From Aurantiacibacter zhengii (lineage in GTDB: Bacteria > Pseudomonadota > Alphaproteobacteria > Sphingomonadales > Sphingomonadaceae): DNA of 64,000 bases. The stretch is from positions 186,001 to 250,000 of the forward strand of contig NZ_QXFL01000005.1 in assembly GCF_003584125.1 (NCBI RefSeq). Direction: 5' to 3'. The notes below the pieces were generated by a model that worked only from the letters and a program-made list of their open reading frames with translations, ran no database searches and was not told the DNA's origin. This document shows, piece by piece, positions 58,880 through 64,000 of this stretch; the first letter of the stretch is position 1, and the number at the start of each line of letters is the position of its first letter. The position numbers and the translations under genes were made by a program.

Positions 58880-59524
58880 GTGGTCGCATTAGTTCAGACG
58901 GTTGCCTACCTTGGCCTAGACGCGCGCAAGGTGGAGGTGCAGTGCCAACTCGCCGCCGGGATGCCGCGCTTCACCGTGGTGGGGCTGCCAGACAAGGCCG
59001 TGGCCGAAAGTCGTGAACGGGTACAGTCGGCGCTTGCGGCCATGGGCCTGTCGCTGCCGCCCAAGCGCATTACCATCAACCTGTCCCCCGCAGACCTTCC
59101 CAAGGAAGGCAGCCATTACGACCTGCCTATCGCGCTCGCCCTGCTGGGTGCGATGGGCGTGGTGGACGCCGAGGAACTGAGCGAATGGCTGGCAGTGGGG
59201 GAACTGTCGCTGGACGGGCGCGTGGTGCCTTCCCCCGGTGTCCTGCTGGCCGCGCTTCACGCCAGCGAGAGCGACCTGGGCTTGATCTGCCCCGCCGCGC
59301 AGGGGCCGGAAGCGCGCTGGGCCAGCGGCGTGCGGGTGTGTGCGGCGCCGAACCTGGTGGACCTGCTGGCCCACCTTTCAGGAAAGTCCGAACTCCCGGA
59401 GCCGCAGCCAGGCGAAGTGGAAAGCGACCGTCACGGGCCGGACCTCAAGCAGGTCAAGGGCCAGGAAACCGCCAAGCGCGCGCTGGAGATCGCGGCGGCT
59501 GGCGGTCACAACCTCCTCAGATAA
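58880..59524 (+). pseudogene. comM: 5' fragment of comM (yifB), disrupted by an integrated element
   Basis: ComM is a Mg-chelatase-type AAA+ helicase that aids branch migration during natural transformation; it is normally about 500 residues. This fragment starts at a GTG (MVALVQTVAYLGLDARKVEVQ, AAGGA upstream) and keeps the N-terminal domain (FTVVGLPDKAVAESRERVQSAL, RITINLSPADLPKEGSHYDLPIALALL) but ends as GGHNLLR plus a TAA. In intact genes HNLL is followed by MxGPPGxGKS, the Walker A, which is missing. The missing 3' part is expected at the element's right end, outside the window. Confidence 0.9.
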
Positions 59525-59560
59525 GATACCCCTACACTCTAATCGAAAGAATCGATAATC
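59500..59560. other. Left attachment junction (attL) in comM
   Basis: The comM reading is intact up to CACAACCTCCTC (HNLL) and diverges after it, so the crossover of the serine recombinase lies at about 59520-59523. The other half-site should be inside the 40 bases before the recombinase ORF. The exact core cannot be fixed without attB or attR. Confidence 0.6.
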
Positions 59561-59564
59561 CGCC

Positions 59565-61205
59565 ATGATGGATTGCGTCATCTATATGCGCTGGTCGAGC
59601 GCTGAGCAGAGCAAGGGTTCCAGTCTGGAGCGCCAGCGCGAAGATTGCCGTCGGCATGCAACAGAAGCAGGTTGGCGGGTCGTAGACGAGCTCGTTGACG
59701 ACGGTATCAGTGCTTTCAAGGGGCAGCACACGACGTCTGGAGCTCTCGGTCGCTTCGTGCAAGATGTAGAAGACGGGCGCTTTCCTGACGGGGTAGTCCT
59801 CCTTTGTGAGAAGCTCGACCGCTTGTCGCGACAGGAGCCCGGGCGGGTCTTCATGTGGATGATGAACCTCACCGAGGCCGGCGTCATGGTGGCCACGGTT
59901 GATGGTGGTCGTCGTTACTCCCAAGGCAATTTCGACATGGCCTCGATCATTGAGGTCGTGGTGAAAGCCCAGCTCAGTCATGAAGAGTCCGAGAAGAAGA
60001 GCCAGCGGCTCAGTTCGGCCTGGGCGGTGAAACGACGCCGGCTCAATAGCGGCGAGAAATTCGTGATGACGCGCCGCGCACCCGCGTGGCTGCAGGTCGT
60101 GGGCAACCCTGCGACCTTCATACCGATCCCCGAACGCGCGGCGGTCGTCCGCCGGATCTTCGAGGAAACGGTTGCTGGTTACGGGAAACACCACATCGCC
60201 CGTAACCTCAATCTCGAAAATGTGCCCACCTTCGGTCGGGCAGATGGCTGGCATGCCTCCTCCATCCAGAAGGTGCTTCGGAACCCCGCGGTGATTGGCG
60301 AACTCCACCCGGCCCGAAAGGCGCGCGGGGCAAAGCGCACGATGACGGGCGACATCGTGGAGGACTACTATCCGGCGGTGGTCGACGCCGATCTCCATCG
60401 ACGGGCTTTAACGGCGATCGCCGAGCGATCGCGCAAGTTCACCGGTCGGGGCCGAAAACTGGTCAACCTCTTTTCGGGACTTGCTACATGCGGCAGTTGC
60501 GGAAACAAGATGACCTTTCGGAGCAAGGGACGCAAGCAGCGTGCGGACGGCACCTGGGTCAGCGAAGATTACCTTATATGCGACGGCTATCAGCGCGGCA
60601 AAGGCTGTACCAACGGCGTCCACTTCAATTACGCGGTCTGGGAGGAAGGAATACTTGATCCCATCATCTTCGAGGCTCTTTCAGGAGACCGTTCAGGTTC
60701 ACATTCAGAAGTTCGTGACTTGGAAATAGAGATTGCAACGCTTGAAAGGACCTGGGAGATCGCCAAAGCGCGTTCGGACTCGGCACTACGCATCGCAGTA
60801 GACACCGGTCGACCCGAAGCTCAGGCCATCTGGACCGACCTCGTGGCAGAAAGCGATGTCGCAATGTCCGCCCTCGACGAAGCACGGGGACGACTACAAC
60901 TGCTTGCGCATGCACCTAGTCTGGAGGAACAGTGGGCCAGGATCCATCAGCTACGTTCACAACTTGACCACGAGAACGAGACGTTGAGATTCGATGCCCG
61001 ATCCAAGGTCATGTCAGCAGTCCATGCCTTGGTGAACCGCCTCGTTTTCTACGGCCCCTCACCCATGGGTGTCGATATGGTCATCGCTTATGAGAGATCG
61101 GTCTCAATTTACTACCATGATCTTCTTGGCGGAACCGAATGGTCAATGTGCCGCCTGAATGCAGAACATTATCTAAACATCGAGGACGAAGCTGCAGAAG
61201 ATTGA
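59565..61205 (+). CDS. Large serine recombinase (integrase)
   Basis: 546 residues, beginning MMDCVIYMRWSSAEQSKGSS. The resolvase-type catalytic domain (about 4-155) has the nucleophile Ser near S11 in YMRWSS, DDGISAFKG and LDRLSRQEPGR. The recombinase domain (about 185-290: AWLQVVGNPATFIPIPERAAVVRRIFEE, SSIQKVLRNPAVIGEL) and zinc ribbon (TCGSCGNKMTF...LICDGYQRGKGCTN) follow, with a coiled-coil region (about 385-475). It catalyses directional integration at attB in comM. No excision factor is recognisable near it. Confidence 0.9.
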   Translation: MMDCVIYMRWSSAEQSKGSSLERQREDCRRHATEAGWRVVDELVDDGISAFKGQHTTSGALGRFVQDVEDGRFPDGVVLLCEKLDRLSRQEPGRVFMWMMNLTEAGVMVATVDGGRRYSQGNFDMASIIEVVVKAQLSHEESEKKSQRLSSAWAVKRRRLNSGEKFVMTRRAPAWLQVVGNPATFIPIPERAAVVRRIFEETVAGYGKHHIARNLNLENVPTFGRADGWHASSIQKVLRNPAVIGELHPARKARGAKRTMTGDIVEDYYPAVVDADLHRRALTAIAERSRKFTGRGRKLVNLFSGLATCGSCGNKMTFRSKGRKQRADGTWVSEDYLICDGYQRGKGCTNGVHFNYAVWEEGILDPIIFEALSGDRSGSHSEVRDLEIEIATLERTWEIAKARSDSALRIAVDTGRPEAQAIWTDLVAESDVAMSALDEARGRLQLLAHAPSLEEQWARIHQLRSQLDHENETLRFDARSKVMSAVHALVNRLVFYGPSPMGVDMVIAYERSVSIYYHDLLGGTEWSMCRLNAEHYLNIEDEAAED

Positions 61206-61779: not shown

Positions 61780-62361
61780 ATGCGCATGAAGGCTTCAGCT
61801 ACACATTCGCTCCTGCTCACATGCCAGGCTCCCGAACAAGCCTTGCGAGAGTTTGGGGACGCCATTTCCAGAGGTCGTATTTCCGGAACCGCGACGGTTA
61901 CCTACCTAGACACAGGCCAAGAGGGCGAGAACGCGAGGATAAAGCAATACTGGCGGCGCATCGAGCAGGAAGCTCAGCAAGCGTCCGTATGGACCTTTGG
62001 GGCAGCGACCTTACCAGGCCAGCACGAGAAGCGGGCTGTAAAACTGACCGATCTCGAGTTCGATGACGAAGCCGTTGAAAAGTTCGTCGAGGAACGCAGG
62101 CCAGCGAAGCCTAAACGAGGCAGGAAACGTATCCAGGATGAATGGACCCCGTTCTGGATCGCCGCGGCGCAGTTGGCGAAGGCCGGAAGGCTAAATCCCG
62201 GGCATTTCCCCACGCAGAAGTCACTCTACGAACGACTTCACGTGATGATGGGAGCGACTTTGGACGAACAGACAATCAAGCCGCTTTCAGCAATCCTTTA
62301 CAGACAGGTTGTTGAGCCCACCGCTTCTCAGCTCGAAGATCTGGTGGCCGAAACCGACTAA
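61780..62361 (+). CDS. Unknown protein in the element, 193 aa
   Basis: 193 residues from MRMKASATHSLLLTCQAPEQALREFGDAISRG. Charged and probably soluble; mid part RPAKPKRGRKRIQDEWTPFWIAAAQLAKAGRL has a basic KRGRKR stretch that may bind nucleic acid, then LYERLHVMMGATLDEQTIKPLSAILY. No family recognised. Its place before the replication gene could mean a regulatory or replication accessory role. No good ribosome-binding sequence decides between the first two Met codons. Confidence 0.55.
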   Translation: MRMKASATHSLLLTCQAPEQALREFGDAISRGRISGTATVTYLDTGQEGENARIKQYWRRIEQEAQQASVWTFGAATLPGQHEKRAVKLTDLEFDDEAVEKFVEERRPAKPKRGRKRIQDEWTPFWIAAAQLAKAGRLNPGHFPTQKSLYERLHVMMGATLDEQTIKPLSAILYRQVVEPTASQLEDLVAETD

Positions 62362-62482: not shown

Positions 62483-62635
62483 ATGAAATCCAATTCCCTA
62501 TCCGGGGCAATCCGGCGCCTCTTCGACGCCCATGCCCTTCTTGATACGCGGCCAGCAAGCGACCGGCTGCCGCCAAGAGAAATCCTGCGATCCCAAGAGA
62601 GGCTCCTCACGAGCGGTGGGGAGACTGGGGAATGA
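62483..62635 (+). CDS. 50-aa protein coupled to the replication gene
   Basis: MKSNSLSGAIRRLFDAHALL, then DTRPASDRLPPREILRSQER and LLTSGGETGE. GGAG lies 8 bases before the ATG, and its stop overlaps the next start (ATGA), so it is translated in tandem with the replication protein. Likely a small helix-rich regulator or accessory; no family recognised. Confidence 0.55.
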   Translation: MKSNSLSGAIRRLFDAHALLDTRPASDRLPPREILRSQERLLTSGGETGE

Positions 62636-64000
62636 ACGCGCCGTCCCTGCAAGCGATCGCCCATATCCTCGGCGGAGAGGTACGTGGTACACGGGCCTGC
62701 TTCCCCACTCCCGGACATAGCGAGAAAGATAGAGGCAGTTGGGCCAGCATCGTGCCCGATGCCCCTGACGGGGTGTTGATCCATTCCGCAAATGGCGGTG
62801 ACCCGATAGCTATAAAGAACATACTGCGCGACGCAGGCGTTCTTCCTCCTCCGGGCGCGCGATCCGGAGGCGTGCCCTGGAATCCCCCGGCGCGGGAAAA
62901 TAGAGTGACCGCCAAGCCTGCTGTGTATCTCGGGGACGGTCAGCGGCTCGCTGCCACTTTCGAATACGTCGATGAAACTGGCGTGACGCTGTACCGAAAG
63001 CATCGCATCGAACCCGGGGAAAACGGGAAACCGAAATGCTTCAGCTATGATCATGTCGATGAAAGCGGGAAATGGACAAGCGGGGCCGGTGAAAGGCGTG
63101 TTCCGTATAGACTGCCTGATCTGCTGGCGGCTTCCGCGGACGCTCCTCTTTACATGACCGAAGGTGAGGCGAAAGCCGACAAGCTGGCGGGTTGGGGTCT
63201 GCTCGCGACTTCTTTCAAGGACTGGAAAGCTGACGAGTTCGGGCAGATTATCAGCGGGCGCCGGATTTACATCTTGCCTGACAACGATAAAGCTGGCCGC
63301 GCCCAGTGTGATAACGTCTGCCAAAAGATACAGCGAGCCGGCGGCGAGACTATCGTCGTCGAACTGCCGGGGCTTCCAGAAGGGGGAGACATTCTAGACT
63401 GGGAAGGGACCGCAGATGACCTTCAGACACTGGTCCGCAATCTCGCGAAGCAAGGGACCATACCGACGCTCGATCTCGTCACCCTTGCTGAATGCAGAGC
63501 CAAACCCAAGGAGTTCGCCATTGCTCCGCTTGCACCTGCTGGTGAGGTCACATTCTTCACCGGTAAGGGTTCGGTAGGCAAAAGTTTATTGGGTCAGCAG
63601 CTTGCGACCGCTGCAGCGCTGGGCAGCGGGACGCTTGGTTTGACTCCGCCCGTCATGAACACGCTTTACATTACCTGCGAGGACGACGCTAATGAGCTTC
63701 ACTGGCGTCAGGAACACATCTGCGAATCCTTGGGCCTGCCAATGGCAAGCCTGGCGCACAAATTGCACCTCGCGTCCTTACGCGGAGAGTTGCACAACGA
63801 ACTGGCCACTTTCTCGGTCGAAGGCGCTATAAAGCCCACTGCGGCGTATGATCGACTTCGCGCGACCTTGATCGAGACAGGCGCGGGCATAGTCTTTCTC
63901 GACAACGTCGCCCACCTCTTCCCCGGTAATGAGAACGACCGCCACCAGGTCGCCTCATTCGTCAACTTGCTCAACCGTCTGGCTGGCGAAACGAACGCGG
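62632..64000 (+). CDS. Toprim plus RecA-like AAA replication protein (3' end missing)
   Basis: Plasmid/phage primase-helicase-type protein; 456 codons are visible and the frame is open at the edge. N-terminal part (about 1-60) resembles the degenerate zinc/CHC2 region (CFPTPGHSEKDRGSWASIV). The Toprim domain has E177 in LYMTEGEAKADKL and D217 in ILPDNDKAGRAQ. A RecA-like ATPase follows: Walker A G311-S318 (FTGKGSVGKSLLGQQ) and Walker B ending at D424 (GIVFLDNVAHLF). This is the RepA/Toprim-helicase arrangement of integrated plasmids and phage satellites. Confidence 0.8.
   Translation, partial: MNAPSLQAIAHILGGEVRGTRACFPTPGHSEKDRGSWASIVPDAPDGVLIHSANGGDPIAIKNILRDAGVLPPPGARSGGVPWNPPARENRVTAKPAVYLGDGQRLAATFEYVDETGVTLYRKHRIEPGENGKPKCFSYDHVDESGKWTSGAGERRVPYRLPDLLAASADAPLYMTEGEAKADKLAGWGLLATSFKDWKADEFGQIISGRRIYILPDNDKAGRAQCDNVCQKIQRAGGETIVVELPGLPEGGDILDWEGTADDLQTLVRNLAKQGTIPTLDLVTLAECRAKPKEFAIAPLAPAGEVTFFTGKGSVGKSLLGQQLATAAALGSGTLGLTPPVMNTLYITCEDDANELHWRQEHICESLGLPMASLAHKLHLASLRGELHNELATFSVEGAIKPTAAYDRLRATLIETGAGIVFLDNVAHLFPGNENDRHQVASFVNLLNRLAGETNA

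Follow-up and report, generated by a model that had tools for sequence, protein, structure and literature searches.

Introduction

Homologues of magnesium chelatase/ATP-dependent protease were reported as the targets of 12.4% of predicted site-specific large serine recombinases (LSRs), and DNA competence genes were enriched among LSR targets (Durrant 2022, PMC10083194). In the phage WO variant sr1WO, an LSR integrates in the magnesium chelatase gene of Wolbachia, which is left as two flanking parts (PMC9203015). Judging by the name, the "magnesium chelatase" of both reports would correspond to the comM family. Tn6022 and the tyrosine-recombinase element Tsy target the Walker B of comM through TnsF (PMC10293859), in agreement with the initial annotation of the DNA studied here, which described comM as a target of AbaR-type islands.

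That annotation also proposed an LSR as a new, second enzyme class at comM. As these sources describe it, LSRs favoring this gene are already known, and an additional enzyme class acting at comM has been published; the claimed novelty of the enzyme class fails on the reports on LSRs (PMC10083194, PMC9203015) and on Tsy and Tn6022 (PMC10293859). Literature searches returned no direct report of an LSR with comM or yifB under those names, and the matches listed included no account of LSR or IS1595 elements in comM. The codon and hosts of the insertion type described here were likewise not stated in the main texts searched. The new detail presented here is that the insertion site and orientation of the LSR elements vary within comM, and that IS1595-transposase elements strike one Walker B nucleotide in three genomes, two of them with the LSR element as well.

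Results

Interrupted comM and the recombinase gene

The window (the whole stretch of 64,000 nucleotides analyzed, C25:186001-250000 of genome G000) contained one half of comM followed by an LSR gene. Positions below are those of the window unless a contig is named.

58880..59524, plus strand: comM 5' half, Lon-like ChlI domain, ending HNLLR*; host DNA to 59514, 3' half on contig C8
59510..59514, plus strand: AACCT core, common to attL and attR; putative crossover in or adjoining AACCT
59515..59540, plus strand: left end of the element, with the inverted-repeat arm CCTACACTCT at 59531-59540; partner AGAGTGTAGG on contig C8
59565..61205, plus strand: LSR (integrase), 546 aa; three Pfam domains; phrog_95 integrase, 5e-78
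61780..62361, plus strand: ORF of 193 aa without a family match; assigned to the element from its position
62632..64000, plus strand: primase/helicase-like gene, 628 aa, running past the window end; AAA_25, Toprim_3 below cut-off, phrog_239 (1e-29)
Contig C8, L005:1180-2064, minus strand: comM 3' half, from domain searches and junction reading

The initial annotation had comM stopping at HNLL before Walker A, with a serine recombinase open reading frame (ORF) 40 bases beyond the break. Both features were seen, the 40 bases counting from the comM stop, and the break was refined in that host DNA ends at AACCT. The 5' half runs from a GTG start at 58880 through HNLLR* to a TAA ending at 59524, and holds ChlI and the first 26 positions of Mg_chelatase (Pfam). 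The codons after the core (second Leu, Arg and stop of HNLLR*) are derived from the element, and 50 bases separate AACCT from the recombinase ATG.

LSRs were recognized as proteins of about 450-700 aa holding Resolvase, Recombinase and zinc-ribbon domains together. The 546-aa protein is an LSR because all three occur in it (Resolvase, 6e-20; Recombinase, 8e-15; Zn_ribbon_recom, 4e-11), each above its curated Pfam cut-off. Its S11, which we take from the LSR family motif to be the catalytic serine position, was at least 90% conserved among 16 LSRs. Two more serine recombinase genes of G000 (L001 and L003, contig C3 at 37092 and 58220) were distant from it (28% and 38% identical across the matched regions).

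The comM 3' half, for which the initial annotation had called, was recovered from Walker A (GPPGAGKS) onward on another contig, C8 (27393-28493, minus strand), beside the other end of the element. Read along comM, the C8 junction is ...AGAGTGTAGGCATATCT-AACCT-GCTGATGAACGG, and the left junction in the window is ...GGTCAC-AACCT-CCTCAGATAAGATACCCCTACACTCT. As anticipated, attR rebuilt the gene: the flanks joined at AACCT gave an in-frame ComM ORF of 498 aa, identical to the intact ComM of G033 (497 aa) at 493 of 497 positions, with four differences and no gaps. The locus thus carries the marks of LSR integration, namely a shared short core, a target rebuilt from attL and attR, and inverted arms at the element ends (AGAGTGTAGG and CCTACACTCT) as expected of attP, the arms lying at unequal distances from AACCT, unlike those of a simple symmetrical attP.

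On the reference comM, the insertion falls at codon ~210, with Walker A at codon 215 and Walker B from codon 293. The conserved loop is therefore not the one used by AbaR-type elements, as had been supposed; Tn6022 is described at Walker B (PMC10293859), whereas the LSR cut precedes Walker A.

Empty sites and comM frames in related genomes

Strains with intact comM supplied the attB that the initial annotation had expected of them. Empty sites were found in 28 of 29 opened comM loci of genus relatives, all 28 reading GGHNLLM(N/S/I)GPPGAGKS, and the remaining locus was that of G012, with the same LSR. The comM C half was present in 40 of 40 genus genomes, and in 36 of them its frame was 498 aa or longer. 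The other four were G000 and G012 (window-type LSR), G030 (an LSR-free insert) and G015, whose comM is divided into two pieces on separate contigs. Only G000 and G012 in the genus held an LSR this close to that of the window, both with comM split at this site, and the next match stood at E=6e-16.

The insert of G030, 1.1 kb at the same comM site (L195, 3660-4750), has a left end resembling that of the G176 LSR element, and its single gene is presumably creatininase-like, to go by its appearance; the insert is possibly a non-autonomous relative of the LSR element. In G291 (L094, near 4785) and G414 (L102, near 9265), comM 3' halves adjoin attR-like sequence with a GTGTAG arm, junctions of the type of the window's clade, and no LSR was seen alongside.

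Across the order, at least 21 genomes had comM frames below 400 aa among the matches listed (counted by eye), and 19 were opened, G332 and G133 excepted. Besides the LSR and IS1595 cases, these short frames included in-frame stops (L084, L088), a frameshift (L092) and contig ends (e.g., L086, L095, L096); breaks at codon ~279-391 in G043, G113, G355 and G339 had no explanation. A C-terminal piece of comM (codons ~341-497) occurs three times in G113 (L089 at 5373 and 8864, L090 at 13833), with ORFs of about 880-900 aa ahead of at least two of these copies.

Relatives of the recombinase

The order search (E<=1e-60) detected the LSR in 17 of 396 genomes including that of the window, the other 16 being divided between comM (12) and other locations (4). 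From the class search (E<=1e-90), which gave 8 of 385 including the window's, six of the other seven were at comM. The phylum search (E<=1e-60) gave 33 of 398; 29 loci were examined (27 new, 2 already seen) and six lay at comM. Two comM-adjacent LSRs from this search came from outside the class, and most of its LSRs were away from comM. All eight LSR loci from the genome collection were at comM, three in genomes new to the sample, and the opening of short-frame comM loci yielded further LSRs at comM in G176, G382, G237 and G307.

Of 59 LSRs gathered, two below 300 aa were dropped and 57 entered the tree. The comM-adjacent LSRs were 32 of these 57, which is not a rate because the sample was drawn with comM-type queries. 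The window LSR belongs to a clade of ten rows (two identical; support 100/97), and all ten follow the comM 5' half in a shared orientation; all but that of G174 (about 1.3 kb off) directly adjoin the junction. In all seven clade elements for which both junctions were read, AACCT was shared in register. Because the ten-row clade lies wholly at this comM position with AACCT in register in 7/7, the insertion there is, as judged from the junctions, not a matter of chance. The claim that recombinase relatives border comM stands for the close relatives, in the clade and largely in the order, and fails for most LSRs of the phylum search.

L038, sister of the ten-row clade, lies beside the comM 3' half in the opposite orientation, and L040, next outward in the tree, at comM codon ~32. 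The pre-Walker-A site is used again in distant LSR clades, and, given the well-supported branches, each of the two orientation labels must have changed four times or more. This site held 29 of the 32 comM LSRs, 18 beside the 5' half (including L169) and 11 beside the 3' half; two others were at codon 32-35 (G366, G587) and the last at codon ~336 (G237). For LSRs outside the order, the position was taken from protein alignment rather than junction reads. L040 and L125 (codon ~32-35) and L099 (codon ~336) represent related-lineage LSRs elsewhere in comM. The junction-shared bases of G176 and G382 lie a few bases further along, at CT. Related LSR elements at the same site also differ in the length of the shared stretch, which is about 10 bases in G204, shorter in G198 and only CT in G382.

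The viral contig search matched no pattern, and the plasmid (13) and phage (17) searches returned only records below 60% identity. The Acetoanaerobium phage ANDSL2_ph1 (PP197248.1; L187, 2929-5089) carries a comM fragment (codons ~187-347, including Walker A) directly adjoining its own LSR, as if attP were situated within a stretch borrowed from the target gene. The Evtepia phage NatCom_42594 (L188, 4217-5110) holds comM codons ~4-298 inside its genome.

Content and extent of the element

The element carries, in addition to the LSR, a primase/helicase-like gene, an exonuclease, an IS1595 transposase and Tad-like pilus genes near the contig end. The element ORFs scanned, which represent only part of it, contained no phage structural, packaging or lysis genes and no conjugation genes (relaxase, type IV secretion), and a Pfam scan of these ORFs of the unclosed element found no tniA/tniB/tniC, TnsF or other Tn7-like genes. 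Within the element, 58 bases from its right end, an IS110-transposase repeat begins. The element in G000 is not closed because contig C8 stops within this repeat, of which about 1.38 kb is common to contigs C13 and C24. On C25 the element reaches 266478 at most, about 21 kb. Linking C8, C25, C13 and C24 through the IS110 copy was considered and rejected, the last 8.5 kb of C25 sharing nothing with C8, C13 or C24 and C13 carrying ordinary chromosomal-looking genes (TonB receptor, ApbE, RmlD-type).

G012, G225, G226 and G333 hold both comM halves on a single contig. Distances from half to half on one contig were about 103 kb (G012), 84 kb (G333), 82 kb (G225), 68.5 kb (G226), 22 kb (G198), 18 kb (G140), 10 kb (G348), 7.7 kb (G382), 6 kb (G204) and 5 kb (G176).

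IS1595-type elements in comM

In G170, G406 and G423, comM was cut at codons ~302-304 by IS1595-type transposase elements with inverted ends. The 8-bp duplication at these Walker B insertions is GAATTCCA, with GAATTCCC on one side in G423, and a like element at codon ~241 in G370 has GAGGCGCT duplicated.

L100, 5117-8731: IS1595-type element inside comM
L103, 1263-17463: IS1595-type element inside comM
L104, 1221-19066: IS1595-type element inside comM
L097, 4582-8533: IS1595-type element inside comM

Three of the four lie at the same Walker B nucleotide (GAATTCC[A/C]) and one at codon ~241. Because three insertions fall at one nucleotide, site specificity of the IS1595 elements for that nucleotide of comM is suggested, as a lead. 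In G406, the IS1595 element additionally encodes a second serine recombinase along with partition genes of the RepB type. G406 and G423 contain the LSR element too, so their comM is cut twice.

Discussion

In all probability, the locus is a mobile genomic island encoding an LSR that integrated site-specifically into comM. The attL in the window and the attR on C8 both hold the AACCT of the Asn-Leu codons just before Walker A. The LSR would have joined a circular attP to attB in comM, with the exchange in or next to AACCT, and the DNA coding for the conserved ATPase motif would offer a single-copy target found in most hosts. Excision would depend on a directionality factor and would restore comM. 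Against the island count the separate contigs of the two halves in G000 and the unclosed element, the four of 16 order-search LSRs and most phylum-search LSRs that are away from comM, the displaced LSR of G174, the site or junction without an LSR in G030, G291 and G414, and the unequal arms.

While the element is integrated, ComM would be present as a Lon-like half and an AAA+ half, and the branch-migration helicase presumably lost. The initial annotation had regarded an intact comM, with the element elsewhere, as evidence against its reading; two domain searches of the G000 genome detected no second full comM. Hexamers were described as built on the Lon domain, and disruption of Walker A in ComM as abolishing DNA binding and helicase activity (PMC11612176, the latter citing Nero 2018). 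Inactivation of comM was tied to lower transformation in Acinetobacter baumannii (PMC11472951). Because the split leaves the Lon-like and AAA+ domains in different halves, and in light of this literature on Walker A and transformation, the function of ComM as a branch-migration helicase is likely lost in the split strain.

A reversible switch, in which excision restores comM and transformation when wanted so that the integrity of the gene is regulated, appears unlikely, although it finds some agreement with the data. The gene is rebuilt exactly in frame, G000 keeps comEC and dprA with long frames, and the aligned comM halves beside LSR elements were free of stops in 20/20 N loci (20 genomes) and 23/23 C loci (21 genomes). 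The stop-free halves fit a recent or reversible insertion, and a recent one explains them equally well. In G406 and G423, moreover, excision of the LSR element would not restore comM because a second transposon interrupts the AAA+ half.

Tn7-like elements generate a 5-bp target duplication, the length of the stretch shared by the junctions here, and a Tn7-like DDE transposon of the AbaR/Tn6022 type could be imagined to have inserted with AACCT as its duplication and the serine recombinase as a passenger; comM is a known target of Tn6022 (PMC10293859). We regard this as very improbable. The Walker B target of Tn6022 lies about 80 codons past the LSR site, and related LSRs at the same site share other junction lengths (G204, G198, G382). 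In most clade members the LSR is the first gene at the junction, and the Pfam-scanned element ORFs held no Tn7-like gene. Equally improbable is a comM split that reflects misassembly or an insertion long since decayed, the LSR lying only nearby, for which the two contigs of G000, one ending in a repeated IS110 copy, might speak; the same junctions in independent assemblies that join the two halves in a single contig (G012, G225, G226, G333) appear to have largely refuted it already, and the stop-free halves stand against it as well.

The LSR lineage is well delimited, with natural attB, attL and attR in several genomes, making it useful as an integration tool and for testing what draws mobile elements to the transformation helicase. 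LSR islands and IS1595 elements strike one gene within one bacterial order, each at a different catalytic motif, which raises the question whether loss of ComM is selected or comM is only a conserved landing site. We tentatively raise the possibility that in Sphingomonadales unrelated chemistries attack both nucleotide-binding motifs of comM, with LSR islands entering just before Walker A in either of two orientations and IS1595-family DDE elements entering Walker B at a single 8-bp site, at times in one and the same gene copy. IS1595-type elements would in that case join Tn6022, Tsy and LSRs as another class specific to comM. This would argue that ComM loss itself, and not only a conserved DNA site, favors such elements.

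Comparison with known systems

As in the LSR elements of Durrant 2022 (PMC10083194, as far as its text describes them), attL and attR of the window's element rebuild the target gene, the target is of the same type by name, and many distant LSR clusters converge on one target type. The present elements differ from that account in the placement of the site just before Walker A, their occurrence in Sphingomonadales, the two orientations and the two rarer sites. In PMC9203015, sr1WO is presented as a phage in Rickettsiales, whereas the scanned ORFs of the window's element included no phage structural genes. Tn6022/AbaR and Tsy, as portrayed in PMC10293859, resemble the window's element in entering comM through the DNA of a conserved ATPase motif, which may limit transformation. 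However, those elements employ a Tn7-like transposase or a tyrosine recombinase guided by TnsF to Walker B, whereas the LSR of the window acts at the codons before Walker A.
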